Assembly: GCA_017517135.1 (NCBI GenBank)
Contig: JAFXAK010000003.1
Location: 56,754 to 120,753 of the forward strand
DNA length: 64,000 bases
Source: Clostridia bacterium
GTDB taxonomy: Bacteria; Bacillota; Clostridia; Oscillospirales; Acutalibacteraceae
Reading direction: 5' to 3'
Shown here: positions 25,348 to 59,600 of the stretch, piece after piece
Position numbering within the stretch: position 1 is the first letter of the stretch
Layout: each line of letters starts with the position of its first letter
Notes under the pieces: generated by a model
Databases searched by the model: none
The model's input: the letters and a program-made list of their open reading frames with translations, nothing else
What the model was told of the DNA's origin: nothing
Made by a program: the position numbers and the translations under genes

Positions 25348-26466
25348 TTATTTTAGTGTGTTGACGGCGGATTGGATGGCGTTCTGGAGGATATCGGTGT
25401 TTATGTGGATGTAGCGTTGTGTGGTGGTTATTTTGGCGTGGCGCATTGCTTCCTGAATTATTGCAGGTGATATGTTTTTGTTTGCGAGAAGTGTTGCTGT
25501 TGTGTGGCGGCAGGAGTAGGGGCGAAGAGCGTTGTTGCAGTTTGTCCGCTTTATCATTTCGGAAAAGTACGAATAAAAGCTATCTCTTACATCAGGATAG
25601 AAGCGGTCTTTTGTTGAGCTTTGCAGGAGTGTTTCAATCAGCGGGATGATAATTTCGGGGATTACTATTGCTGTTTCTTTTCGCTTTTTGGTTTTTATGC
25701 CGCAGCCTGTTATCACTCGTTTTTGAATGTCTATCATTTCAGGTCTCAGACGCAGCAGTTCTCCCGGCATCATTCCTGTGTATATCATCAACAGGAAATA
25801 GCCCGTCGGGATGAAGCCGTTTGAATAATCCTCCCAGAGCTTCAGAATTTCCTTTTCAGTAAACGGTACTGTTTCGGTTTCGTTCAGCTCGGGCAGAACT
25901 ATGTACTTTGCAAGATTGACGGTGACGAGCTGCTCTGCGATTGCTCTTTCATACAGGATTGAGAGCAGGTCCCTCATATCCTTGGCGGGGTAGTAAGTTT
26001 CGACCTCAGTGTCAACAATGTTCTGCAGGTCGGCTATTCCTAAATCCTTTATGTTGAAATTAAAAATTCTTTCAAGCCGTCTTTTTGCCGTTCTGTAGTG
26101 TGTCTGTTTGGATTTTGAGAGCTTGACAAAAGAGGAGGTTTCATATACTGCCCAGATGTCCTGCAGAGAGCTTGTCTTTATCAGAGCGGGTTTGTTTTCT
26201 CTTAATATCGGGATATATTCGAGGGCTTCTTTCTTTGTTTTGAAGCCGCCTTTGCTTCTTCTGATAGCGTTCCCCTCAAGGGTGTAGCCTACAGTTATGA
26301 TTGCCGTCCATGTCTTGCCTCTTTTTTTTGCAGTACCTTGACCGTTTCCTCTTGATTTCGTTTTTTGCGGTTTGTCGGATGATGTTTGCCGACTTCCGCA
26401 GAACGGGCAAAATGAGGCTTTTTCGGGCAAAAAAGAGCTGCATTTTTTGCAGGTGTATTCTGTCAT
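25348..26466 (-). CDS. int: Tyrosine recombinase (prophage integrase) with N-terminal zinc ribbon
   Basis: A 372-residue integrase. The catalytic set is visible: Arg in TGMMPGELLRLRPEM, HxxR in YSCRHTTATLL, His in MRHAKITTTQ and Tyr in QRYIHI. A SAM-like core-binding domain precedes it (about residues 100-185), and an AP2-like arm-binding stretch (WTAIITVGYTLEGNAIRRSK) lies before that. The N-terminus adds a CxxC...CxxC zinc ribbon (C6, C9, C20, C23), an unusual extra. The start is the ATG at 26466 after GAAAGGA, not the longer in-frame start at 26505. Its 3' end faces attL. Confidence 0.93.
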   Translation of the reverse strand: MTEYTCKKCSSFLPEKASFCPFCGSRQTSSDKPQKTKSRGNGQGTAKKRGKTWTAIITVGYTLEGNAIRRSKGGFKTKKEALEYIPILRENKPALIKTSSLQDIWAVYETSSFVKLSKSKQTHYRTAKRRLERIFNFNIKDLGIADLQNIVDTEVETYYPAKDMRDLLSILYERAIAEQLVTVNLAKYIVLPELNETETVPFTEKEILKLWEDYSNGFIPTGYFLLMIYTGMMPGELLRLRPEMIDIQKRVITGCGIKTKKRKETAIVIPEIIIPLIETLLQSSTKDRFYPDVRDSFYSYFSEMIKRTNCNNALRPYSCRHTTATLLANKNISPAIIQEAMRHAKITTTQRYIHINTDILQNAIQSAVNTLK

Positions 26467-26491
26467 AAAAAACATCCTTTCGTAAAAAAAG

Positions 26492-26520
26492 TTGACTTTT
26501 ACCAAAGGATGACATATTAT
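26492..26520 (+). promoter_or_regulatory. Plus-strand promoter divergent from int
   Basis: TTGACT (26492-26497), 17 bases, TATTAT (26515-26520). It points away from int into a region with no good gene and a terminator 70 bases later. Confidence 0.6.
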
Positions 26521-39562: not shown

Positions 39563-40081
39563 GTGGAACAGAAGGCGAATATAAATTGGGATGAACTGAG
39601 GATAGATTATATCATTAACGGCTTATCTTATTCCGAATTGTCCGAAAAACACGGCGTTTCGAGGTCTACTATATCCCAGTGCGGGAAGCGTGAAAAGTGG
39701 GTTGAGCAGAGAAAACAGCATAGTGCTGAACTTGTGACGAATGCTGCGGATTTTGCACTTAAAAACGGCACACAGCAGCTGGAGAAGATAGGCGAGTGTG
39801 TGGATAAGGTTCTGAACAGAGTGTATACGATTGTTTTTTCTGAGGATACATTGACTGTCAAGACGCTTACTCAGCTGACGGCGGCGCTTCGGGAGCTTAA
39901 GAATATTACCCGAGACCTGGGCGGTCTGCCTACAGTACTCGAAAGAGAGCAGCTGAAGCTTGCAAGGAAGCGGCTCAAGGTTGAGGAGGAGCGTCTGAAA
40001 CTCGAAAAGGGCAAGGTTAAGACGGATGAGAGCAGAGAGATTACTGTAATTTTTGAGGGCGGTGAGGATTTTGTCGAGTAG
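39563..40081 (+). CDS. Terminase small subunit
   Basis: A 172-residue protein with a GTG start after AAAGGAGTGAGG. The N-terminal HTH (IINGLSYSELSEKHGVSRST) is the usual DNA-recognition domain of phage small terminases. The helical C-terminus (LKLARKRLKVEEERLKLEKG) fits oligomerisation. It overlaps the large subunit by up to 29 nt. It should recognise the packaging site, which is often in or near this gene. Confidence 0.82.
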   Translation: MEQKANINWDELRIDYIINGLSYSELSEKHGVSRSTISQCGKREKWVEQRKQHSAELVTNAADFALKNGTQQLEKIGECVDKVLNRVYTIVFSEDTLTVKTLTQLTAALRELKNITRDLGGLPTVLEREQLKLARKRLKVEEERLKLEKGKVKTDESREITVIFEGGEDFVE

Positions 40082-41438
40082 GACTGAATTGAGGATTCCT
40101 GCACCGTCTGCACGGCAGAGGCTGTTTCTTTCCGACAAGCACCGATATGTTGCATTCGGGGGAGCGAGAGGCGGCGGTAAGAGCTGGGCTGTGAGAATAA
40201 AGGCTGTCTTGCTTGCATTCGGCTTTCCCGGAATAAAGATTATGATAGTACGCCGTACCTATCCTGAACTGAGGGCAAACCACATAGGGCCTCTGAGACA
40301 GCTTTTAGGGGATTTTGCCGTTTATAAGGACAGCACGAAGGAGCTTTCCTTTCCCAACGGCTCGGTTATTCTTTTCAGGCATTGCCAGACACAAAGCGAT
40401 ATTGACAAGTACCAGGGTACCGAGGTTGATGTTCTTTTCATTGACGAAGCGACACAGTTCACCGAGGAGCAGTACGACCGATTCAAGGCGTGTGTTCGAG
40501 GTGTTAACAGCTTTCCGAAGCGTATATATCTGACCTGCAACCCCGGAGGAGTGGGACACGCATTCGTAAAGCGGCTTTTTGTTGACAGAGCATATAAAGA
40601 GAGTGAGAACGGTGAGGATTATTCCTTCATCCGCTCTCTTGTGACCGACAACAAGGCTCTTATGGAAACGAATCCCGATTATGTAGCACAGCTTAAAGCC
40701 TTACCGCCGAAGCTCAGGAAGGCGTGGCTCGAGGGGGACTGGAACATATTTGACGGACAGTTCTTTGAGGAGTTCAGAGATATTCCCGAGCATTATAAGG
40801 ACAGAAAATTCACCCATGTAATTGAGCCCTTTGAGGTTCCCCGTGAGTGGAATATCGTAAGGAGCTTTGACTTTGGTTTTGCAAAGCCATTTTCATGTGA
40901 CTGGTGGGCTATAGATTATGACGGCAGGGCCTATCTTATTTTACAGCTCTACGGCGGCACGGCTACACCTAATGAGGGTGTTAAATGGCATCCCGACAAG
41001 ATTTTTTCGGAGATACACCGTATTGAGAGTACACACCGTTGGCTTAAAGGTAAGCAGATAACGGGTGTTGCCGATCCGTCTATATGGGATGTTTCGAGAG
41101 GTGAGAGCGTATACGATACAGCCTGCTCGAATTTCGTTTATTTTAATAAAGGCGACAACAAGAGAATTCCCGGGTGGATGCAGTGTCATTACCGTATGTC
41201 CTTTGACGAAAACGGCTTGCCGATGGTGTATTTCTTCAACACCTGTACTCACGCTATCCGCACTCTGCCGCTTCTGCAGTTTTCGGAAACACTGCCCGAG
41301 GACCTCGACACATCACAGGAGGATCACTTTGCCGATTCGTTCAGATACTTCTGTATGTCAAGACCTATTGCACCGAGGAAAATGCCCGAAAATAAGACGA
41401 TTGAAAAGGACCCGCTAAACTTACTATCAGGAGGATAA
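40053..41438 (+). CDS. Terminase large subunit
   Basis: A 461-residue packaging motor. Walker A-type AFGGARGGGKSW and Walker B VLFIDEAT lie in the ATPase half. The RNase H-like nuclease half has acidic residues in SFDFGFAKPFSCDWW, GVADPSIWD and EDHFADSFRY. Together they pump DNA into the head and cut it. The TTG start at 40053 is the longest choice; a later TTG at 40093 with AGTAGGA in front is also possible. Confidence 0.93.
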   Translation: MRAVRILSSRTELRIPAPSARQRLFLSDKHRYVAFGGARGGGKSWAVRIKAVLLAFGFPGIKIMIVRRTYPELRANHIGPLRQLLGDFAVYKDSTKELSFPNGSVILFRHCQTQSDIDKYQGTEVDVLFIDEATQFTEEQYDRFKACVRGVNSFPKRIYLTCNPGGVGHAFVKRLFVDRAYKESENGEDYSFIRSLVTDNKALMETNPDYVAQLKALPPKLRKAWLEGDWNIFDGQFFEEFRDIPEHYKDRKFTHVIEPFEVPREWNIVRSFDFGFAKPFSCDWWAIDYDGRAYLILQLYGGTATPNEGVKWHPDKIFSEIHRIESTHRWLKGKQITGVADPSIWDVSRGESVYDTACSNFVYFNKGDNKRIPGWMQCHYRMSFDENGLPMVYFFNTCTHAIRTLPLLQFSETLPEDLDTSQEDHFADSFRYFCMSRPIAPRKMPENKTIEKDPLNLLSGG

Positions 41439-41439
41439 A

Positions 41440-43380
41440 ATGGAATTTACAGCAGAAAATCAGAAGAATTCAAACATTTTCACACAGAACATCAATGTGC
41501 AGGATATGTACACAGCCGAGCTTGCTGCTCAGTCAGGCTCGGGAGAGAAGCTGAACAACATCACACAGGACCATATCAGAACCGCTATGTCCGTTCTGCA
41601 GAGATACAAGAACGGCAAGGCGAACCTTGAGCAGCGTATAATCACAAACGAGGAATGGTTCCGCCTGCAGCACTGGAGCAAGGAGAGAAATGCAAAGCAG
41701 GGGGCTCAGACCAAGAGAGCAACGGGGTGGCTTTTTAACTCCATTGACAACAAGCACGCGGACTTTATGGATAACTTCCCCGGACTTACCGTGTTACCCA
41801 GAGAGAAAAGCGACGAGCAGGCTGCTCAGGAGCTGAGCAACATAATCCCTGCCGTGCTTGAGAGGAACGATTTTAAGGAAGTGTACAGCTCTGTGTGTAC
41901 ATATAAGCTCAAGAACGGTACAGGTATATACGGTGTTTACTGGGATCCTTCCAGGGAGAACGGAATCGGAGATATATCCGTACAGCTTGTTGATGCTCTC
42001 AATCTGTTCTGGGAGCCGGGGATTACAGATATTCAGCACTCGGAAAATGTGTTCTTTGTTGAGCTTGTCAATAACAACACCCTCAAGGCTGTTTATCCCG
42101 ACATTGATTTGGATAAGCTCGGCGGTGAGAGCTTTACCGTTGCAAGATATCAGTACAACGAAAATGTTGACACCTCCGACAAGTCCTCGGTTGTTTCCTG
42201 GTACTACAAGAAGAAAGTGAACGGCAAAACGGTGCTGCATTACTGCCGATTTGTCAATGATATCATTCTTTTTGCTTCCGAGAATGACAGCAGATATGCC
42301 GATACGGGCTGGTATGCACACGGAAAATATCCGTTTGTGTTCGATACGCTCTATGAAGATGTCGGTACCCCGTTCGGCTTCGGGCTTATCGATGTAAACA
42401 AGGAATCGCAGGAGGACATTGACGAGATGTCTTCTCTTATTCTCAGGAATGCTAAGGCTGCTTTGAGGAGGAGATATTTTATTTCTGCATCGGCGAATGT
42501 GAATCCTAATGAATATGCCGACCTTGACAAGGATTTTGTGACCGTCCAGGGAGATGTTGACGACAGCCGTGTCAAGGAAATATCCGTTTCCACCTTGCCC
42601 GGAACATATGTTGAGGTGCTTAATAACAAGATACAGGAGCTCAAAGAAATAAGTTCGAACAGAGATGTTACTGCCGGCAGTACAAGCTCATCCGTTACTG
42701 CCGCTTCTGCTATTGCAGCATTGCAGGAATCGGGAAACAAGACCTCCCGAGCTATGATTTCAAAGACATACACAGCCTTCAGAAAGGTATGCGAGCTTAT
42801 TATCGAGCTTATGCGACAGTTCTATGATGCGCCGAGGACATTCCGTATCACGGGGGAAAACGGAGCAACACAGTTTCAGAGCTTTTCAAACGAGAAGATA
42901 AAGGGCGGACAGAGCTTTTCCGAATTCGGTCTGACATTTTCAGAAAAAGCTCCTGTGTTTGACCTGTCTGTGCAGATTTATAAGCAGAATCCCTGGAGTA
43001 AGGCGGCACAGAATCAGGATGCTATAAGCTTCTACAACATGGGACTGTTCAATCCGAACAATGAACTGCAGGCTATGGCTTGTATGCAGATGCTTGACTT
43101 TGAGAACAAGGATAAGGTGATGAGAAGCATTCAGCAGAACGGTGTGATGTCGAAAATGCTTCCTGTTATGCTTCAGGCCGTGCAGATAGTGGATGCACAG
43201 AACGGGACAAATAATGCCGAGATGTTTGCTGCTCAGTTAGGGATGAGCTTACCGCAGACCACCGTGCAGAGTGCTCAGACCGGAACGGGAAACGAGATGG
43301 CACAGGCTGAGGGAGAAAACAGAACGCTTGTTGATAAAGCCAAGGCACGAACGGCGGCGACTACCGCAGCGAGGGCGTAA
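41440..43380 (+). CDS. Portal protein, P22-like
   Basis: A 646-residue protein in the portal position with P22/podovirus-like features: SVLQRYKNGKANLEQRIITN near the start, the wing/stem segment GFGLIDVNKESQEDIDEMSS, then TLPGTYVEVLNNKIQELKEI and the SVTAASAIAALQESGNKTSR segment common in these portals. It forms the dodecameric ring through which DNA passes. It starts 1 nt after the terminase stop. Length is longer than the usual siphovirus portals and closer to P22 gp1. Confidence 0.88.
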   Translation: MEFTAENQKNSNIFTQNINVQDMYTAELAAQSGSGEKLNNITQDHIRTAMSVLQRYKNGKANLEQRIITNEEWFRLQHWSKERNAKQGAQTKRATGWLFNSIDNKHADFMDNFPGLTVLPREKSDEQAAQELSNIIPAVLERNDFKEVYSSVCTYKLKNGTGIYGVYWDPSRENGIGDISVQLVDALNLFWEPGITDIQHSENVFFVELVNNNTLKAVYPDIDLDKLGGESFTVARYQYNENVDTSDKSSVVSWYYKKKVNGKTVLHYCRFVNDIILFASENDSRYADTGWYAHGKYPFVFDTLYEDVGTPFGFGLIDVNKESQEDIDEMSSLILRNAKAALRRRYFISASANVNPNEYADLDKDFVTVQGDVDDSRVKEISVSTLPGTYVEVLNNKIQELKEISSNRDVTAGSTSSSVTAASAIAALQESGNKTSRAMISKTYTAFRKVCELIIELMRQFYDAPRTFRITGENGATQFQSFSNEKIKGGQSFSEFGLTFSEKAPVFDLSVQIYKQNPWSKAAQNQDAISFYNMGLFNPNNELQAMACMQMLDFENKDKVMRSIQQNGVMSKMLPVMLQAVQIVDAQNGTNNAEMFAAQLGMSLPQTTVQSAQTGTGNEMAQAEGENRTLVDKAKARTAATTAARA

Positions 43381-43383
43381 GCT

Positions 43384-43668
43384 ATGATTAAGGCTAAATT
43401 TTCAGAGGGTAAGACAGATATTCTGCTGACTGTTTCGGGACATTCGGGAAAAAGAGGAGAGAGCCTTGTCTGTGCCAGTGTGTCTACTCTTATGTTTGCA
43501 CTCGAAAGAACGCTGAAAGAATCGGGATTCGTTTATGAAAAAGTGATTTCGGACGGCTTATTTCAGCTTGTTTCAGGAAAAGATGCACGGCCCTTTTTTG
43601 AGGTGGTGCTGAACGGTCTGATGTTGTTGTCAGAAAAATATCCCGATGAAGTTAAATTGAAGATGTGA
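43384..43668 (+). CDS. prp: Prp-type ribosomal-processing cysteine protease, phage copy
   Basis: A 94-residue protein of the Prp family. The catalytic pair is His20 in SGHSGKRGE and Cys30 in LVCASVSTLMFAL. Host Prp removes an N-terminal extension from ribosomal protein L27 at the motif NLQFFA. Here the gene lies between portal and scaffold, and both the scaffold and capsid proteins begin with a close match (DLQLFA, DIQLFA). I infer a head-maturation protease. The His-Cys spacing (10 residues) is slightly shorter than in the bacterial enzymes I know. Confidence 0.85.
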   Translation: MIKAKFSEGKTDILLTVSGHSGKRGESLVCASVSTLMFALERTLKESGFVYEKVISDGLFQLVSGKDARPFFEVVLNGLMLLSEKYPDEVKLKM

Positions 43669-43675
43669 TACATGG

Positions 43676-43704
43676 CTTCTCGCTTCGGCGGGGAGCTTTT
43701 TTCT
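43676..43704 (+). terminator. Terminator after prp
   Basis: A stem GCTTCTCGC with GCGGGGAGC (several G-T pairs) followed by TTTTTTC. It may lower expression upstream relative to scaffold and capsid. Confidence 0.6.
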
Positions 43705-43889
43705 TCTTAATAATCACAAGCGATTGGGATTTCAAGTAAAAAAAACAAGCGGAATTTTTTAGTTGTGAGAAAAATTTTTAAGTTTTTTGAAAAAATTTTT
43801 AATTAACGGCACTAAAAAGGGGTAGTGATGAAAAGAAAAATGCTAAATTAAATATGACACTTCGGAAAGACGATGGAAGGAGCTTTAAT
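43705..43889 (+). promoter_or_regulatory. A/T-rich leader of the scaffold gene
   Basis: No gene except a 7-codon ORF (ATGAAAAGAAAAATGCTAAA from 43828). It contains AATTAACGGCACTAAAAAGG (from 43800), which recurs with small changes at 60585 before another structural gene. No -10/-35 consensus pair is clear. Confidence 0.35.
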
Positions 43890-44849
43890 ATGGCTGACAA
43901 ACATTTTTTTGACCTGCAGCTTTTCGCTGACGGCGGTGCAGACGGAGAGGGTACTGCCGCTGCGGTGAGCTCATCAGGTCTCTCGGGCGATTTCAATGCT
44001 GATTACAGCAAGTACATTTTAGGCAAGGAGGACGCCGCTCCTGCGAAAACAACAGAGGTGATTTCTTCAGATGATGTGAAGACAGCTGATTCACATTCGG
44101 ATGATGCCACAGACGGTGCGGACACCTCGGCACAGGACAACACGGCAGATATCGATGCTGAATTCGAGGAGCTTATCAAGGGTAAGTTTAAAGAGCAGTT
44201 CGGGAAGCGTACACAGAATATCATAAATCAGCGTTTCAGGGCCGCAAAGAATACTCAGGAGAATCTCGAATCTCTGCAGAGTGCTATCGCGCCGCTGTTC
44301 GACAAGTACGACATCAAAACGGACGATTTTCAGGCTCTCAAGGATGCTATTCTCAATGACGAATCGACCTTTGCAAGAAAGGCAATGAGCGTCAATAAGT
44401 CTACTGAGGAGTATAAAGCGGATTTTGAAGCAAAGCAGAAGCAGGATGCTCAGGCTCAGGCGGATGCAATGGCTTCAATGAAAGAAACCTATGCGAAATG
44501 GAAGGCTGAGGAAGCAGAATTGCAGAAAATTTATCCCGGCTTTGACCTTGCAAAGGCTATTTCGGGGAGTGAGGAATTCAGGACTGCTATTGAAAACGGA
44601 ACATCTGTGGCTCTTGCTTATAAGGGGGCATTCTTTGACGATATCACAGCAGGTCTTGTTTCTGCGACAATGCATAAGTCTGCTGAAAAGACAGTCAAAG
44701 CTATTGCTGCAAATGCTAAAAGACCTCCCGAGGGCGGTGTGAACGCTGCGGGCGGTGCGACACAGAAGATTGATGTCAATTCCCTCTCCGAAAAACAGAT
44801 TCTGGATATTATTGAAAGAAGTGCAAGAGGAGAAAGAATCTCCTTTTAA
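43890..44849 (+). CDS. Scaffold protein with N-terminal Prp-type cleavage motif
   Basis: A 319-residue acidic, helix-rich protein just before the capsid gene, with the make-up of a scaffold (QTQ-type low-complexity start, coiled coil EEYKADFEAKQKQDAQAQAD, basic/hydrophobic end SLSEKQILDIIERSARGERI). The N-terminus HFFDLQLFADGGADGE has the L27/Prp motif ending at Ala13. The start is the ATG at 43890 after GAAGGAG; a longer in-frame start at 43854 has no good ribosome site and would bury the motif. Confidence 0.8.
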   Translation: MADKHFFDLQLFADGGADGEGTAAAVSSSGLSGDFNADYSKYILGKEDAAPAKTTEVISSDDVKTADSHSDDATDGADTSAQDNTADIDAEFEELIKGKFKEQFGKRTQNIINQRFRAAKNTQENLESLQSAIAPLFDKYDIKTDDFQALKDAILNDESTFARKAMSVNKSTEEYKADFEAKQKQDAQAQADAMASMKETYAKWKAEEAELQKIYPGFDLAKAISGSEEFRTAIENGTSVALAYKGAFFDDITAGLVSATMHKSAEKTVKAIAANAKRPPEGGVNAAGGATQKIDVNSLSEKQILDIIERSARGERISF

Positions 44850-44872
44850 GCACGAAAAAGGAGAGAAAGTAA

Positions 44873-46168
44873 TTGAAAAAGTTTGATTTTGATTTCGATA
44901 TTCAGCTTTTCGCCGACGGCGGTGCTGACTATGTTGTAAACTCTACAGGCGGACATATTGAGGGCGGTGCCGTGACAAATGCGGGCGCTCTTTCCGCCGA
45001 AATGAAAACCTTTTATGACAAAACGCTCATCACACTTGCAAGTGCCAATCTTGTGCATGAGCAGTTCGGTCAGAAGCGTCCTATCCCTAAAAACGGCGGT
45101 AAGACCATTGAGTTCAGACGCTTCTCAAGACTTCCCAAGGCATTAAAGCCCATCACAGAGGGTGTTACTCCTGCAGGTAACAAGCTCAATGTTACTGCTA
45201 TGACCTGTTCTGTTGATCAGTACGGCGACTACATTGAGCAGACAGATATGCTCGAGCTTACCGCAATCGACAACACTATAGTTGAAGCTACAAAGGAGCT
45301 TGCGGCTCAGGCAGGTCTTACTCTTGATACCGTTGTGAGAAACGAGCTTGTGGGCGGTACCAATGTAATGTATGCTCCCGAGGTTGACGCTGACGGAGAG
45401 GAAACAGAGGTTCTTTCCCGTGCTGATATTTCAGCAGCCTGCAGACTTCGTGTGAAGGATGTTTTCAAGGCCGCAGCAGAGCTCAAGGCAGTGAATGCTC
45501 CCAAAATCAACGGCTCGTATGTGGCTATCATTCATCCCTATATCGCATACGACCTTATGCAGGATGCCAAGGAGCAGTGGATGGGTATTCAGAAATATGC
45601 CGATCCCGAAAAAATCCTCAAGGGTGAAATCGGAACTCTCGGCGGTGTCCGCTTCGTTGAATCAACCGAGGCTAAAATCTTCGGTCCCGAAAAAATCACT
45701 GAGGATTATTCAAGATTTACCGTTGCGGCTACAGCTACAAAGGGTGCAACCGCTATCAAGGTGGCAGAACCCGTTGAGGCGCATCAGCTTGCTTCTCCCG
45801 TCCCTGTTTATGTTGACGGCACAGAAAACACCGTTACAGCTATCGCTGCAGACGGCACTCTTACTCTCGGCACAGCTTTAGCAAACGATGTTGCAGCTGA
45901 TGCTGTTATCTGCGGTCAGGGTGCAGGCAGGGACGGCAGTGCAGTTTTCTGTACACTCTTCATCGGTGAGAACGCATACGGTGTAACCGACATTACAGGC
46001 GGCGGTCTTGAGCATATCGTGAAGCAGAAGGGCTACGGCAACGATCCTCTTAATCAGAGAAGCTCTGTCGGCTGGAAGGCAACAAAGGTCGCAAAAAGAC
46101 TTCTTGAGGAATACCTCCTCAGAGTTGAATCAGCTTCAGAGTTCTCTGATGTAGTTGAAAGCAACTAA
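44873..46168 (+). CDS. Major capsid protein, N4-gp56 family
   Basis: A 431-residue capsid protein. The segments FGQKRPIPKNGGKTIEFRRF, YGDYIEQTDMLELTAID and VAIIHPYIAYDLMQD match the N4-gp56 family of HK97-fold capsids. Residues about 285-350 form an extra Ala/Val-rich beta domain (VPVYVDGTENTVTAIAADG) that could sit on the capsid surface. The N-terminus FDFDIQLFADGGADY carries the same Prp-type site as the scaffold (motif ends at Ala14). TTG start after AAAGGAGAG. Confidence 0.92.
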   Translation: MKKFDFDFDIQLFADGGADYVVNSTGGHIEGGAVTNAGALSAEMKTFYDKTLITLASANLVHEQFGQKRPIPKNGGKTIEFRRFSRLPKALKPITEGVTPAGNKLNVTAMTCSVDQYGDYIEQTDMLELTAIDNTIVEATKELAAQAGLTLDTVVRNELVGGTNVMYAPEVDADGEETEVLSRADISAACRLRVKDVFKAAAELKAVNAPKINGSYVAIIHPYIAYDLMQDAKEQWMGIQKYADPEKILKGEIGTLGGVRFVESTEAKIFGPEKITEDYSRFTVAATATKGATAIKVAEPVEAHQLASPVPVYVDGTENTVTAIAADGTLTLGTALANDVAADAVICGQGAGRDGSAVFCTLFIGENAYGVTDITGGGLEHIVKQKGYGNDPLNQRSSVGWKATKVAKRLLEEYLLRVESASEFSDVVESN

Positions 46169-50698: not shown

Positions 50699-53600
50699 AT
50701 GGCTATTGACAGAGAAAAATTACAGCAGGCTTATCAGCAGAGAAAGAGATTGTCTGCGGTTTCAGGTTCAAGCGGTACGATTGACAGAGATAAGCTGCAG
50801 CAGGCTTATTCGCAGAGAAAGAGGCTGACACCGAAGAAAGAGGAAGAGGAAGAAAAGAAGGAGCAGGTTGTAAGCCAGACGGTGAATAAAACTGCTGTCA
50901 GCACTGTTCCCGAAAAGAATGCTATAAATAATGCCGTTAAGGATGCGGTCACCTCGGGTTGGACTGAGAAAGGAATCAGCACGAAGGATGCGCGTTCTAT
51001 TCTTCGTGCGGCGAGCGGGATGAGCTCAGACCATACGATTGACGAAAAGGGCAATGTTTATAAAAATATTACTGTTGAGGACTACGATAATGCTATCAAT
51101 AAGGTAAGCGAGGAAATGCAGGCTCTTGTTGAAGAGAAGCCGTATGCGGATAATCGGCAGCCTTGGACCTCTCTTTTGTCGGGGGAACTTTCGTGGAAAA
51201 AGGAAGTTTTGAAAGGAAAATATCTTGAAGCAAAGGACGAATATACCAAATTACTGCAGCAGAAAACGGCTTTAGAGCAGGAGAGGGAGCAGCTGAAAAA
51301 TCAGAAGCTTGTACAGAAAGCAGAAAAAGACGGGTATGCAGATATACTTTCACAGTTGTATGATGCGGATTATTTATCACAGGGAAATAAGCTTTCAGGT
51401 CTTATGACGAGTACTTCTGACGGCTTGAATTTTGTACAGACAAATGAGGCTTATTCTCTGCAAAAGAAAAAAGAAAATTTAATGCAGAAGCTTACCGAAT
51501 CGGGAGTAAATGCAAATGAGGTCTATGCAGCATATAAGAGTGTACGCAATGCCGAAAGTCAGGAAGAAAGAAATAAGGCTTTTGAGGAATTCGCAAAAGA
51601 ACACAAGGTTGCTTCATCCGTTCTCTCTGTTCTGGCTTCTCCGGTTCAGGGAGCAGCTTCGGCAGTCGGAGCATTAATGGGAGAGGACAGCTCCTCTCCT
51701 TACAATGCTGTTGCAGATTTCAACGAAACTACACGAAACACCGTCGCACAGGAGCTTAAGGAAAGTGACAACAAGCTGGTTGCTACTGTTATGCCTACAT
51801 TGTACCAGGCGGGAATGTCCGCTGCGGACAGCCTCATTACAATGGGTACCTTCGGGAAATTAGGTGAGGCTGTAATGGGCCTTAATTCCGCTATGTCAAC
51901 CTACAATGCCGCAAAGGAAAAGGGCGTAAGTCAGGCACAGGCTATAGCAAGCGGATTTGCTGCAGGTGTGTTTGAAGCTGTGTTTGAACATATCTCTCTC
52001 GGAAATCTTCGTGCTTTTCAGAGCAATCCCGATGAGCTTGTGAAAGGTATCCTGAAGCAGTTTGTTGCAGAGGGCAGCGAGGAGGTTTTTACCGATATTG
52101 CAAACGAGATAACAGACTATCTTATTAACGGCGGACTTTCCGAATATGAATTATATGTTCAGAACGCTATGAAAGACGGAAAAAGCCGTGCAGATGCCGA
52201 TTTGGAATATACCAAGGAATTCGGTTTACAGCTTCTTGAAACAGGCTTAATCGGCGGAATTTCGGGCGGTATGATGGTTAGTACTGTTTCGGGTGTTAAT
52301 AAAGTGAGCTCAACTGCACAGAAGGCTGTCGGAACGGCTCTCGAAAATTATGTCACCGGGCAGACAGTAAAGAAAAGCGGCTCAGTTCAGACTACTCTTG
52401 AACGACTTTCTGAAGAAGGCTCGGAAGAGGTGCAGAAGAACTCGAAGCAGCTGCAGCAGAAGACTGCCGGGAAGAACAAGATAAATCTTATTGATACCTA
52501 TAAAATCGGCAAGACTTATAATCAGTACACGGACAGCATTATTGAGGATGCCGCAACACAGCGTATTTCTAAGATTGAGGGGCTGAATGACAGCACAAAA
52601 ACTGCTCTCATTCAGGGAACAGTTAATGTTATCAAGGGTAAGGCTCTTTCTTCTAAGCAGCAGGAGGCCTTCACGGAAACCAAAGCCGGCAAGGATATTT
52701 TCTCGGAGATAGCGGGATATACTGAGGCTGAGTGGGTAAGTGATGCCATACAGAAAATCAGCGAGAGCAACAGTAAGCTCACAGTATCTGATGCTGAAAT
52801 CAGTCAGCAGAGGGCGGCTGAGGAAACCGACAAGAAAATTGCAGAGCAGGAAGAAAGCATTATTGAGGCTATCAATACTGATACCGTAGATTCGCTCGTA
52901 AAAAGCACATTTGAGGCTGAAAGCGTTGAGGGGTATACAGTTCAGGTCGGTGCGGTCAAGTCGATTATTGACGGCGATTTTGAGGTCGTACAGGACATGG
53001 AAAGCGGCGCAACAGAGAAGCTCAGCAAGCTTAACATTAAAAATGAACAGGCAAAGGAGCTGTATGCTACCTTACAGGAGACGGCAAATTCACAATCGCT
53101 TCTGAATATGGAAAAAGAGCACAATATACCTATGAGCATTAAGGGTGTTAATGCGGCACTTTCGATGTATAATCCCGAGGCAAACAAGGATGCAAAACTC
53201 TATGCTATGTGGGCTCATGATGCTTTTACTGCAGGTAAATTCGGTGAATTGGAATTCAGTGAATTTCTTGATTATTTCCAGAAAGACTGGGACGGATATA
53301 TCTCAGAGGAACAGCTCAGACAGATGTTTGCCGTCGGACTTGCCGAGACTGAGCTCAAGGCAGGTATTACCCGTATTGGACATGCTAAGCTTTCGGATAT
53401 TCAGCTTGAGATGCTGGTTGTTCTGAACCGTGTTTTCAAGGATTTGGGTATGGCCGGTGCTGCTGTTGATTCTCTTTATGATTCGGACGGCAACAAGCTG
53501 AACGGTCTGCTTAAGAGCGGTGACAGAATTCTTATTTCACTCGATAGTGAATTCGGTCTTACTTCTGTGTCTGCCGGTCATGAGCTTTTCCATTGGTTAA

Positions 53601-56600
53601 AACAAGTGGATCCTGAAGCTGCAAAGCGTTTGCAGGGTATTGTTATCGGCATTATGCAGCAGAACGGTACATACGAGGAGGCTTATAAGCAGAGAGCCGA
53701 AGTATATGCCGGACTTTCCCAAGATGCGATAAACGAGGAAGTTGCAGCGCAGTATTTCGGTGTTGTGTTCTCATCGGAGAGCAACATAAGAAAAGTAATC
53801 GAAAACAGCTCTCAGCAGGAGCTTTCGATGTGGCAGAAGATTGTTGAGCATCTCAAAGACTTTGTAAAGAGAATAAAGGATGCCATTGAAAGATATGCTC
53901 TGCAGGATAAGACAGTCCGTGCCGCCCTTAAAGCTGATGCAGATACCGTTGAGGAGCTTGCAAGGCAGTTTGATGTGTGCCTGAAGGAGGCTGCGAAAAA
54001 CAAAAAGCCCGCCGAGCAGGTGCAGGGCGGGGAGAAGTATTCTTATGCAGGTGTTAAAGCAAAGACAACAGATATAAAAGCTTTTGATTATGCAATAAGG
54101 CTTGAGGATGTCGGCAAGGCTACAGCCGAAGAAATAAGACAGCAGACAGGTTGGTTCAGAGGCTATGACAATAAGTGGCGTTTTGAAATCAGCGACAGGG
54201 ATATGGAAATTGATACTACAGGTAAGTTTTCATCAAATCCCGATATAAGAAGATATACTGAATTATTCGAGAAGGCTTATGTGGATATGTCGGCAACCGA
54301 GGCTGAAATTGAGGAGCTGAAAGCGCTTGATAAAAACCTCAAGGGTGTAAGCACAGAGCCTAAAACTTTAGGTGAGCTTATCAGACATGATTTGCTGTTT
54401 TCTGCATATCCGCAACTCAAGGATATGAAAATACATTTTGCTGATATTGATGTGCGCGGTGCGTATGATCCTATGCTCAAAGAGTTTATTTTTCAGAAGA
54501 AGCTTAAAGTTGATAAAAGCAAGCTTACAAAAACTCTTATTCATGAAATTCAGCATGCGATACAGGATATCGAAGGCTTTGCAAGTGGCACGAATCTTGA
54601 CTACTGGCGTGATATGGGTATTCCTGAAGATAAAGTAAGAGAATACTATGAAAATACAGCCGGTGAAATAGAAGCAAGAGATGCTGCTGCAAGAGAGTGG
54701 CGTACAGACGAAGCACGAAAAGAAAAACGCCCTGATATTGACAGGACGGATGTGGTGTTTGCTGATAGTGCGGATAAAGCTTCGAAGCAGATGTCTGTAG
54801 CTAAAAAACGAGATGCGGAGTATCTGGAGCTTGCAAAGGACACAGAAAAGAATGCTGTGCAGCTTCGTTCTTTGGTGGAAGGTGCCGCAAGAGATGCAGG
54901 GTATACAAGAAAAATGTTTCACGAAACAAATGCGGAAAATATTCATATATTTGATATTTCCAGAAGTGACCATGCAGGAAACGATAATGAGACACCTTTT
55001 GGCATATTCACAAAGTCAAGACCGGACAATATAGGACTTGGAAGCAGACAGCTTTCTCTTTATGTTAAAGCAGATAAAACATTCATCGTAAAAAACAGAG
55101 AGGAAATAAAAAATAAAATTCCGGGGCTTCTTCCTTTATATGAAAAAATATCTGAAATTGACAGAAAATACGGACAGCTTGCGGAAGAACTTGAGGATGA
55201 AGAGTTTGATGCCCTTTCCGAATGGATGGATGAGCATCCTGATGCTGAAATGGATAAGGTTTATCCGAATTCGTATCTCATTGAAAAGAAGCCTGCTGAT
55301 ATAGATTCAGATAGATATCATGCAGCATTTAAGAAATACGAAGAAAACATGCAGGAATGGGAAGCTTCCTCAAGATCAGTTGCAGTACAATCAAAAGAAT
55401 TTATAACTGAATTTCTTCGCAAAAATGAATACGATTCAATGTATATCGAGGTAGATAAAGGAAGTTTTGGCAGAAAAACCGATAGTTTTATTGTACTGAA
55501 TGAAAATCAGGTTAAGTCTGCAGAACTTTTGACCTATGCTGACAATGGTGACATTGTGCCTTTATCTGAACGATTCAATCCGAAAAAGGTTGATATCAGA
55601 TACTCAAAGCAGATGTCACAGTCCGAAGCAAGGGACAGTACGGATATTGACCGTATGTCACTTAAGGATTATAATAACAGAGGATGGGCTTACAGTCTTT
55701 TGAACAAAGAAGACATCAGACTTTTCAACGAGAAAGTGTTTGAAACAATGAGCCCGAAAGCAAAAACTTCTGTAAAAAAACTTGCAGACGGAACGAAGAT
55801 TTTTGATATCAACAATAAAATTCTTTTTGTTGGCGGTACATTTGCAAATCCGATAATTGAGTTTGCTGTTGCTATTAATGCAGAATCTGCAACAGAAGCG
55901 GAAATTATAAAAAATATTTGTTTTGAGAGGTTAGAATATGGAGATTACACGAATTCAGGACTTGCGCGCTGGTTCAAGACTCGAGCAGATTATTATGGAG
56001 AAAAATATTTCGTTTGCTACGGAAGAAAAGATTTTGTCGCCGCTTCTGAGGCAGAAAAAGGCAATATCAAAAGAGCAGCATTACCGCACGGTTTTGCTTC
56101 TTACGGATATACTCGAGAGAGCTACAGACGAAGCGGAAGCAATCAGAATGATAACGGAGAAATATCCGGAGGTGTCAAGTTTTCAAAACAAATAACCCAG
56201 CAGACCGAGGACAATATTGAGCAGTTGGCTTTGGAGAATGAGGCTCTGAGGGAACTGCTTGATTCGGCAAAGGATGTTGAGGCTGAATTGAGAGAGCGTC
56301 TTGATACTGCCAAGAAGATGAACAGAACGACGAGAGGGCTTATTCCTGACAAGACGGAGCTGTTCAGAATTGTCCGTAAATATAATCACAGTAAGTCAGG
56401 ATATACCAATACGGAGCTTGTTAAGTATATCGACGGCATTATGTGGGATTTGAGAGATAAGCAGGGCGATTCTAATACTCTTATAAGCTCTCTGACGGCT
56501 TTGATGCAGGATTTACTTGAAACCTCGGAAACCGTAAACCGTGATTTGTATGAGCAGTATGCTGATTTCAGAAAGTATTTCAGAGGCAGTACGCTGTATG

Positions 56601-59600
56601 TAAATCAGGATGTATACGATTTCCTGCTTGAGGAATACGGCTCGAAGAAGAACCTGCGAAATGCAACACTCGGCAAGCTCAATATAAAACCTATGACCGA
56701 AACGGATTCGGGGACTACACTCACTCAGGCTTATCAGGATATTGTTCAGCATTTCCCCGAGCTTCTTAATCCCGATGTGGATGAATATCATATCGTCGAG
56801 GAAATTCTTTCAGCGTGGAGAGCTATTCAGCCGACTGTAACTACCGAAATTGACGGAATGAAAACCGAGGCAGAGGTTCACGAGGCGGCCATGCTTATGG
56901 CTTATGAGGTGCAGAGCGAGCTGTTCAATGCTCCTGCACTGGTGACTAATGCTGACCGATATATTGAGAAAATCAATGCGGTAAAAGAGCATTACAAGGC
57001 GAGAGAAAAGGAATTGAGAGCCGAGAAGAATGAGCGTATCCGTCAGACGAAGGAACGCTATCAGAAGAGTATCAAGGATGCACGCGACAAGAGAAACGAA
57101 ACCGAGGAAAAGAATAAAATTCTCAAGCGCATCAGAAAACAGACCTTTAGTATTAAAAGGATGCTGTTGAGCCCGTCTGATACTAAGCATATCCCCGAGG
57201 AGCTTAAGGAAAGTATGATTGCTTTCGTTGCTCTCGTTGACGATAAGAGCTTTGTCTTCCAGGGGGAAAGAAACAGAGTGCAGCTTAAGAAGGTGCTTGA
57301 GACATATGCTCGTAATTACGGTGCAAATCTGCCGAACAGTGACGGCAGTATTGATCAGACCACAAGTGATTACAGCCGACTTATAACATCTCTTAATCTC
57401 GATCCTCAGCTGAAGGCAAATATGGATGAGCTGAACAGCAGGCTTTCGGGCGATAAGTTCTCGGAAATAACACTCGAGGATATGAGAATAATCGAAAATG
57501 CCGTCAAGAACATACACAAGATAGTTGAGGACAGCAATTCCGCATTTGTGAACGGCAAAAAGCAGAAATTTGAGAGCCTTTGCGAGAGTGCACTGAATCA
57601 GCTTGCAGAGCACGGTAAGAGAACTCCCGGAGAAAAGCTGTTTGATTCAACTCCTATGGCGTGGATAACTACACCGTGGATGTTCTTCAAGGAGAGAATG
57701 GGCGGTGTGTTCGGTCAGTTATTTGACGATTTTATATCGGGACAGAATAAGTATGCATTGAACATTGCCGCTGCGAAGAAGACCATTGCTGAGACTAAAG
57801 AAAAATTCAGTTATGACGAATGGTGTGAGGGCGGAAAGAATGCTCACTCTGAAACGGTTGTTCTTGAAAGAGGTCAGGAGGTAACATTCACGGCAGAGCA
57901 GATGCTGAGTATATATGCCACATTTGAACGAGAAAAGGCACTCGGTAAGGATTCCTCTCACCTTATGAACGGCGGTATTGTTTTTGCCGACGCTTATAAA
58001 AAAGAGCTTAAAAAGCAGCTCAAGAATAAGCAGAAAAACGATAAGCAGAAGCTCGGTGAAAAGGATGTCAGTCTTGCAGTTGATAACCTTACAAGTGAAG
58101 CCATACCTTTGACACTTTCAGATATCGAGAATATCACGGGAAGACTTACCGAGCAGGAAAAGGCGTATGCAGACGCTTTGGTTGAGTTTCTTTCGTCTGA
58201 TATGGCAAAGCTCGGTAATGAGGTTGCAATGTCCCTTTACGGCTACGAGAAATTCAATGAGAAAAAATATTTCCCGTTTGAAAGTTCGGGACTGTATCTT
58301 TCAATGCAGTTGGGTGTTGTTCAGACCGAGAACAGAATCAAGCATCTTTCTTTCACTCATCAGCTTGTTGAGAATGCATCGAATCCCGTTGTGCTCAATG
58401 ATTTTTCCCAGATTTGTGCACAGCACATTGATCTGATGTGTACATATAATGCTTTCACTCTGCCTCTTGATAACTTAACCCGAGTGTTTAACTACAAAAC
58501 GAGTGAGTATGAAACGCAGACCGTGACAGACGAGAACGGCGAGCCTGAAAAATACAAGAGAGATACAAAATATCACAAAAAGGGCGAAGAAAAAACAAAA
58601 CAGGTCAAGCTCGGAGAAAAGGACAACATGCGAGTTGCTATCCGCAATGCTCTCGGTGCGAATGCGGAGCAGTATATTATCCGTTTTGCTCAGAGTGCAA
58701 ACGGCGGTGTGCAGAGTGATAAAGCGGAAACGGTTTATCAGCAGCTGTTTTCGAAATTCAAAAAGATTGCAGTTCTTGGCAATTCATCTGTTGTTGTTCA
58801 GCAGGTATCTTCAATCGCCCGTGCATTCGCTCTCATTGATGTGAAATACTTTATTCCCGAGGCCTTTGATTTTAACGATTACAATGAATGCATGCAGTAT
58901 TGCGGTGAAGCTGTCATCAAGGATATGGGCGGTTTCGACACAAGCCTCGGCAAATCTGCCGCACATTGGATTTTAGATGCTCCCGAAAAGACTGTCCGCA
59001 AGAAGATTCTTAAGGTGACAGATTCTGCATTGTCTTCGGGGGCGGAAACGGCGGACAAGATTGTGTGGAGTGTAATCTGGAACACCGTCAAGCGTGAGCA
59101 GGCGGCAAAGAATCCGACTTTGGATACAGACAGCACGGAATTTATGAACGAATGCGCAAAGCGTTTCAGTGAGGTTATAAATACCACTCAGGTGTACGAT
59201 TCTGTATTCGCAAAAACTCCCATTATGAACAGCAAGAGCTTCGCTGCAAAGACTATGACGGCATTTATGGCCGAGCCGTTGCTTTCTCTTAATCTGCTTA
59301 TGAATGCAGCTCTGCAGACTGATAGAAAGAATATAAGATATGCGGGCCGTGCTGTTTCGGCGTTTATGTTGCAGGTGGTTGTGAATAATCTGCTCAAGAA
59401 TTTAATCGGTGCATTGAGGGATACCGACGAGGATCAGACATATTGGGAAAAATATGTTGAGGGACTTACAGAGGATCTTCTCGGAAGTGCCATTACGGTG
59501 AACGGACGAAAGATATGGATTCCCGTGTTTCTGACAAGTGATTTTTCCGTGCTCGGAATGATTCCGCTTGTCAAGGAGATAATGTCGCTTCTTGAGGGCT

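Follow-up and report, generated by a model that had tools for sequence, protein, structure and literature searches.

A phage-encoded Prp protease beside L27-type tags on scaffold and capsid in a Clostridia prophage: a candidate self-contained processing module

Why phages tag their head proteins with the cut site of ribosomal protein L27, and how they manage in hosts that lack the protease Prp, is an open puzzle. We addressed it at a 64,000-nt window of DNA from a Clostridia bacterium (the window being the whole stretch analysed), which is an integrated prophage. From 39563 to 46168 its head-gene cluster encodes, in this order, a terminase, a portal protein, a Prp, a scaffold-like protein and a capsid protein of the N4-gp56 family. 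We conclude that these genes probably include a self-contained module, in which the phage's own Prp would trim the N-termini of scaffold and capsid during head assembly. The basis for this conclusion is read from sequence: the enzyme, the tags, their co-occurrence, the matching of tags within a phage, fusions with a tag at the junction, and a correlation between active-site loop and tag.

The window enzyme and the tags on its neighbours

The gene at 43384-43668 encodes a protein of 94 amino acids (aa) that matches PF04327 Peptidase_Prp at 41 bits against a cut-off of 27 (E 2.2e-10) and also matches the phrog_4478 peptidase. The catalytic His and Cys are present, with a Ser four residues past the Cys (H20, C30, S34), and G19, H20, C30 and S34 all have counterparts at the aligned positions of the host's own Prp. 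Both profile matches and this alignment bear out the first-pass annotation, which had read a Prp His/Cys layout from this gene. The gene sits in the head operon, and not between rplU and rpmA as ribosomal Prp genes do. Against the NCBIfam Prp equivalog, the window Prp scores 39.9 (cut-off 136), and the host Prp of the same genome is also below, at 58.3 (cut-off 135). A PDB sequence search with the window Prp alone returned weak Prp matches (2idl, E 0.038; 2g0i, 0.14; 4peo/7kld, 0.33), which ranked below designed proteins.

The two proteins encoded downstream carry the tags. The scaffold reads MADKHFFDLQLFADGG from an ATG at 43890 with AAGGAG immediately 5' of it; the mechanical open reading frame (ORF) begins at 43854, and 43890 was judged the better start. 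The capsid, assigned to the N4-gp56 family by TIGR04387 (249.4 bits, cut-off 60), reads MKKFDFDFDIQLFADGG from a TTG at 44873. Their tags, with an arrow at the predicted cut, are FDLQLF↓ADGG in the scaffold and FDIQLF↓ADGG in the capsid. Among 110 window ORFs (at least 80 aa, with an RBS-like start) the motif lies near the N-terminus, at the threshold used, only in these two, and the earlier claim that scaffold and capsid both bear an L27-type motif therefore holds. A position matrix learned from relatives detects the motif, at 7 bits or more, in 70 of the scaffolds and 71 of the capsids (88 each), fractions that are partly by construction because it was trained on those loci. Background rates were 1.3% for control N-termini (1494) and 1.4% for shuffled sequences (3520).

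A second prophage of the same genome, on contig 17, repeats this arrangement: it carries a Prp, and its scaffold and capsid read FDIQMFAEG and FDIQMFAAG. A remnant on contig 20 (locus L315 5067-8590, genome G000) holds a terminase, a portal protein and a Prp with a 12-type loop; no scaffold or capsid was found within 10.5 kb.

A precedent exists in Staphylococcus phage 80alpha, in which the host Prp cuts both capsid and scaffold, after Phe, according to PMC5744158 and PMC9405229. The window phage is like 80alpha in that both head proteins bear an L27-type tag. Unlike 80alpha, which borrows the host enzyme, it has a prp gene (43384-43668), and the tags of many relatives have left the host type. 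The phage Prp would recognise FD[LI]QLF↓ADGG on newly made scaffold and capsid and would cut after Phe, removing 12 residues from the scaffold and 13 from the capsid. This agrees with the first-pass annotation on the site, although not on the length, which had been put at 13-14 residues. The cut would take place in the procapsid pathway, and the tag may serve folding or assembly first, as does the essential N-terminus of the 80alpha scaffold. The further ideas of the first-pass annotation, that cleavage times head assembly and that the host L27 may be a second target, have no support so far. In PMC5744158, 80alpha with an uncleavable capsid or scaffold still yields viable phage; the scaffold N-terminus is essential.

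Enzyme, tag and active-site loop among relatives

Relatives were gathered by scans of IMG/VR with the window capsid (13 loci), a Prp alignment (69 loci) and a capsid alignment (best 80 of 539), and by a scan of GTDB genomes with a capsid alignment of diverged-motif phages (best 80 of 269). Local profiles found a Prp in 131 of 165 sequences, a set that includes several views of G000 and loci recruited by Prp; the Prp of locus L193 was missed by the profile, spotted by eye and added by hand. Dereplication at 85% capsid identity left 149 representatives, 111 of them with portal, scaffold and capsid in view. In these 111, partly Prp-recruited loci, Prp and motif occurred together in 88, Prp without a 7-bit motif in 4, motif without Prp in 5 and neither in 14 (Fisher p 1.4e-10). 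Because part of the set had been recruited by Prp, we recounted on the 79 loci recruited by capsid only, which gave 59, 4, 4 and 12 (p 5e-8), or a tag in 59 of 63 loci with Prp versus 4 of 16 without. Both proteins carried the motif in 70 of 92 Prp loci versus 1 of 19 Prp-less loci. The survey of Prp and motif in N4-gp56 phages that the first-pass annotation had proposed as a check thus comes out in favour of the pairing (88/92 versus 5/19). Chance co-occurrence of the tag is ruled out by the control N-termini and shuffles together with the Fisher tests, which ignore ancestry. A pattern scan of the portal-scaffold gap for a hidden divergent Prp in 27 loci of Prp-less prophages (of which L225 and L202 lacked portal or scaffold and L238 gave an empty stretch) returned only a spurious low-complexity match in L009. 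Separately, L200 and L229 are Clostridia-type prophages in bins labelled Heimdallarchaeota and Muribaculaceae, and are probably mis-binned contigs.

The tags also match within a phage. In 84 representatives both proteins carry the motif, and here the residues of scaffold and capsid were identical in 42 at P5 (permutation mean 20.3), 74 at P4 (67.5), 55 at P3 (34.2), 70 at P2 (44.2), 83 at P1 (80.1) and 55 at P1' (33.9). None of 5000 permutations reached the observed identity, except at P4, where two did, and relatedness inflates this result. Matched scaffold and capsid variants include QHFA with QHFA, QRFA with QRFA, FIQLFA with FIQLFA and LTKFD with LTKFD.

In 15 loci, from 5 capsid clusters, the Prp frame continues without a stop into the scaffold, and in 15/15 of these fusions the motif begins 11-27 residues past the Prp domain. 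With no stop of its own, a fused Prp would form one chain with the scaffold unless the two are cleaved apart. Many fusions have an ATG just 5' of the motif, so that a separate scaffold could also come from an internal start. One fusion (L077 3316-4695) has two tags, 13 and 60 residues past the Prp domain.

These fusions bear on whether the tag is instead an assembly or chaperone-binding signal of scaffold and capsid, with Prp acting mainly as a chaperone or binder and cutting only incidentally. PMC5744158, where cleavage is dispensable for 80alpha and the scaffold N-terminus is essential, speaks for such a role, and a chaperone role of Prp is discussed in PMC9405229. However, His and Cys are invariant in 44 aligned phage Prps, and junction tags in Prp-scaffold fusions are best understood as cut sites. 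The near-constant P1 identity points the same way, although permutation alone gives nearly as much. We regard a mainly non-proteolytic role as unlikely.

PMC9405229 reports that in S. aureus Prp the substrate P3 Gln bonds the L2 loop (Gly29, Asp31), that D31A is inactive, and that Prps not cutting L27 tend toward shorter loops. Among 99 dereplicated phage Prps with a readable loop, the spacing from His to Cys is 12 in 64, 11 in 12, 10 in 3, 8 in 10 and 7 in 7, with 6, 13 and 15 in one each. With scored motifs, P3 of the capsid is Gln in 0 of 15 loci at a spacing of 8 or less versus 58 of 62 at a spacing of 12 (p 1e-12); the scaffold values are 0 of 15 versus 46 of 53 (p 4e-10). The capsid P3 is likewise Gln in 62 of 74 loci with Asp three residues before the Cys (Cys-3) versus 2 of 17 without it, those two being the window and L099. 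The capsid tree requires at least 5 changes into or out of a spacing of 8 or less, and at least 12 changes of the P3 residue. As an observation apart, in L090/L092 (5329-6912) the capsid (PF05065, HK97-type, in L090) and its upstream neighbour start FDIQLFE/FDLQLFE, with Glu at P1', and the Prp has Ser for Asp at Cys-3.

Such patterns could also arise if gene order and N-termini were ancestral to one phage group, the correlation of loop and tag then being a clade effect. Most loci do belong to one capsid family, fully supported independent contrasts are few, and many tree forks are open. Against this inheritance stand the repeated changes of loop and tag on the capsid tree, the absence of the tag from 14 of 19 Prp-less relatives in view, the pairing of Prp and tag in loci with other head proteins (Phage_cap_E, HK97-type, phrog_840), and the tag on some tail-tube proteins. 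Simple inheritance of a neighbourhood is thus the least probable of the alternatives that we considered, and in our judgement very improbable.

The host enzyme and points against the proposed module

The window genome has four PF04327 matches, namely a host gene and three genes behind phage portal genes. The host Prp gene adjoins rpmA, and the host L27 is long and begins MLKINIQLFAHKK. The window tags might accordingly be cut by the host Prp as in 80alpha, the phage gene being redundant or decaying in this prophage. Besides this host gene and L27, the lack of the key Asp and the short loop of the window Prp favour that explanation, as do the Prp-less loci L194, L196, L208 and L217, which keep Gln-type tags in Prp-bearing hosts. 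On the other side, a Prp is present in 92 of the 111 dereplicated loci with the interval in view, and His, Cys, Ser34 and Gly are retained in the window, L004 and L099. Relatives with non-Gln tags mostly have a Prp of their own, and so do tagged prophages of short-L27 hosts with the portal in view. Reliance on the host Prp is therefore doubtful, and we rate it slightly below the non-proteolytic role.

A search of the hosts for L27 and Prp covered 75 genomes; because most of these are metagenome-assembled genomes, an absence from a host genome may be a gap. The 67 L27 loci that were read include 50 of the long Gln type and 13 short. Host Prps adjoining rpmA were read in 51 genomes, with a spacing of 12 in 48 and 14 in 3. 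No Prp was found adjoining rpmA in 13 of 13 short-L27 loci, some of them truncated. Genome G031 has one weak PF04327 match, away from rpmA. In G052, G053 and G055 (L271, L272, L293) the host Prps beside rpmA have the longer loop, with a His-to-Cys spacing of 14 and of the GHSTANAEDELGRIVCSAVS type; no tag was seen in the prophages fetched from these genomes (L209, L211, L212).

We placed 78 prophage loci in host genomes. In long-L27 hosts, prophages with their own Prp had Gln tags in 17 cases, mixed tags in 1 and non-Gln tags in 13; those without Prp had a Gln tag in 4 and no motif in 7; and in 11 the interval was not in view (2 Gln, 2 non-Gln, 7 none). Short-L27 hosts held 6 prophages with their own Prp (4 scored non-Gln, 2 under threshold), 5 with neither Prp nor motif and 2 with the interval not in view (1 non-Gln). 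For the 12 loci whose host L27 was unclassified, 8 had their own Prp (3 non-Gln, 2 Gln, 3 unscored), 1 had neither Prp nor motif and 3 were not in view. Of the prophages with wholly non-Gln tags, 20 of 23 carry their own Prp, one of these seen by eye. Four tagged prophages lack a Prp although portal and scaffold are in view, and their hosts are known; all four have Gln-type tags, and every one of these hosts has a long L27 and a Prp. Judged from these sequences, in many relatives enzyme and tag have shifted jointly away from the host specificity, and such phages probably do not depend on a host Prp. The first-pass annotation had proposed that the phage carries its Prp so as not to borrow the host enzyme. 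The relatives support this, some of them in short-L27 hosts in which no host Prp was found. For the window prophage it is no more than a possibility: its host has both Prp and a long L27, and the host enzyme might cut these tags too.

A number of observations weigh against the phage-owned module. In the window itself, Ser27 stands where S. aureus Prp has the Asp whose change to Ala inactivates it, and the His-to-Cys spacing is 10, which makes the loop two residues shorter than the 12-type; the window Prp thus has neither of the two features taken to mark an L27-cleaving Prp, Asp at Cys-3 and a spacing of 12. Its tags keep Gln and Ala, so the window enzyme departs from the rule relating loop and tag, and its activity could be reduced. 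Because the host Prp is normal and the host L27 tag resembles those of the window, the cutting could here fall to the host enzyme. Among relatives, the Fisher tests on co-occurrence ignore ancestry. Four Prp loci are under the motif threshold (L231, L167, L200 and L166). In all of these but L166, other words that look alike by eye occur on both scaffold and capsid, such as SLYLLEGE/SLYLLDGE in L231. Five Prp-less loci have a tag (L194, L098, L208, L103 and L009), all with P3 Gln and four with the motif on only one of the two proteins. Seven loci with a Prp (L181, L186, L187, L189-L191 and L195) have the capsid tag DLQLFG or NLQLFG, and a scaffold tag was not found in them.

The loop correlation is likewise imperfect. 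At a spacing of 11, Gln occupies P3 in 4 of 10 capsids but in none of 7 scaffolds, and at 10 it does so in 2 of 3 of each; a minority of loci thus combines Gln with a spacing of 10-11, or non-Gln with 12. Just 2 fully supported independent pairs test a spacing of 8 or less, and with only 2 significance cannot be reached, although over 200 random pairings a mean of 1.9 of 2 agree and none ever disagree. For a spacing below 12 versus P3, the 7 supported pairs give a mean of 1.8 in the same direction, 0.3 in the opposite one and 4.9 without a difference. Finally, L168, L169 and L176 have non-Gln capsid tags with the portal not in view. A pattern scan of these whole loci on both strands found no Prp, and the same pattern recovered those of L193, L172 and L214; L168 has 4.1 kb in view upstream of the scaffold. 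PF04327 matches in their genomes are the host gene only (G004, G029) or none (G006). Short-loop Prps escape the PF04327 model. It gives no match in 9 of 13 genomes with a short L27, yet three of those 9 hold a phage Prp, namely those of L172 and L214 (found by a local profile) and L193 (by eye). L168, L169 and L176 could be counterexamples.

Lineage, known systems and other features of the window

A quick tree was built from 100 Prps of phages and 50 of hosts; one branch separates the two with an SH-aLRT (Shimodaira-Hasegawa-like approximate likelihood-ratio test) support of 95.6, from 110 columns and with 81 of 147 forks open. The window enzyme shares with the ribosomal Prps of Firmicutes, such as S. 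aureus Prp (MEROPS C108, PF04327), the profile family, the His, Cys and Ser positions and the substrate motif xLQxF↓A. It differs in that its gene is not beside rpmA, in belonging to a lineage apart from the 50 host Prps, in having head proteins as presumed substrates, and in its loop, two residues shorter and with Ser for Asp.

The pairing extends beyond N4-gp56 phages. No N4-gp56 capsid is in view in 21 of the Prp loci. In 13 of these, one or more ORFs bear the tag, counting from 1.5 kb upstream of the Prp onward; some of the 13 are near-copies, and L032 and L047 belong to the main group but are cut off. Several of the remaining 8 loci stop close to the Prp. Eleven tagged proteins that we looked up were phrog_172 head scaffolds, head proteins of phrog_840, phrog_29/PF03864 and phrog_10/PF05065, PF06199 tail-tube proteins and one protein of unknown function (L074). 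Prp and tag are thus also paired with Phage_cap_E, HK97-type and phrog_840 head proteins, and because the tagged proteins span several families, the tag occurs on non-homologous proteins. Tail-tube proteins of PF06199 with the tag or a near variant occur in the Prp loci L061 (8539-9135), L081 (4669-5307, DLQLFT) and L086 (3796-4335), and the system is therefore not confined to heads. The tag has also been noted on the phage 80 capsid and a phi13 tail protein (PMC5744158).

A more distant comparison is the Streptococcus phage Cp-1. We take its protease to be orf13, which the record annotates as hypothetical. In hhalign this protein can be aligned with the profile of phage Prps at a probability of 96%, and it has GHGDDTDQSCARVS and a His-to-Cys spacing of 8; its Pfam score is under the cut-off (18.5 versus 27), and some 2.3 kb separate its gene from that of the capsid. 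No xLQxFA tag is seen in the first 120 residues of the Cp-1 head protein. According to PMC12445089, a clan CR protease removes the first 48 residues of the major Cp-1 head protein. Given this precedent, phage-owned Prp-like proteases are not new in kind. In titles and abstract openings of the open literature, we found no paper in which a phage Prp goes together with tagged scaffold and capsid proteins of its own phage. This pairing, the fusions, the covariation of loop and tag, and the host pattern were not found in the literature searched.

A broader picture, to which we give about even odds, is that in phages of gut Clostridia an old, separate Prp lineage forms a portable system of protease and tag, sometimes as a self-processing Prp-scaffold polyprotein. 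Loop and tag would have changed together repeatedly into pairs orthogonal to the Prp/L27 pair of the host, permitting growth in Prp-less hosts. The L27 extension and ribosomal Prp may have a common origin with this phage system. A phage enzyme with changing, matched tags offers many natural protease-substrate pairs for direct measurement of specificity. Such pairs also let one test whether cutting matters for heads, and may show where ribosomal Prp arose. Prp is an antibiotic target, and loop variants with possibly changed specificity therefore bear on inhibitor design.

The features of the window are collected in Table 1. The scaffold label was given because the protein is encoded between portal and capsid and is kept in relatives, and is to that extent presumptive.

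Table 1. Positions of the head-gene cluster, tags and other features in the window
Feature	Position	Strand	Basis
Integrase, left part of prophage	25348..26505	-	phrog_1 integrase, E 2.2e-39
Terminase small subunit-like	39563..40081	+	phrog_1206, E 5.8e-10
Terminase large subunit	40053..41438	+	PF04466, E 2.5e-14; phrog_979
P22-like portal protein	41440..43380	+	PF16510, E 7.4e-24
Phage-encoded Prp cysteine protease, GHSGKRGESLVCASVS, His20/Cys30/Ser34	43384..43668	+	PF04327, E 2.2e-10; phrog_4478; alignments
Intrinsic-terminator-like hairpin, prp/scaffold gap	43674..43697	+	10-bp stem then T run; fold z-score -3.9
Scaffold-like protein, predicted cut MADKHFFDLQLF↓ADGG	43890..44849	+	phrog_13908 (function unknown there)
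Tag DLQLFA in scaffold, P5 to P1'	43911..43928	+	sequence; 20.3 bits
N4-gp56 major capsid protein (from TTG), predicted cut MKKFDFDFDIQLF↓ADGG	44873..46168	+	TIGR04387, 249 bits; phrog_1357
Tag DIQLFA in capsid, P5 to P1'	44897..44914	+	sequence; 17.6 bits

The hairpin at 43674-43697, directly after prp, would uncouple the dose of the enzyme from that of the structural genes. A simple scan found no sigma-70-like promoter in the gap upstream of the scaffold. Elsewhere in the window, 50699-60580 is one ORF of 3293 residues, whose single Pfam match is LPD23, a domain of large polyvalent proteins.

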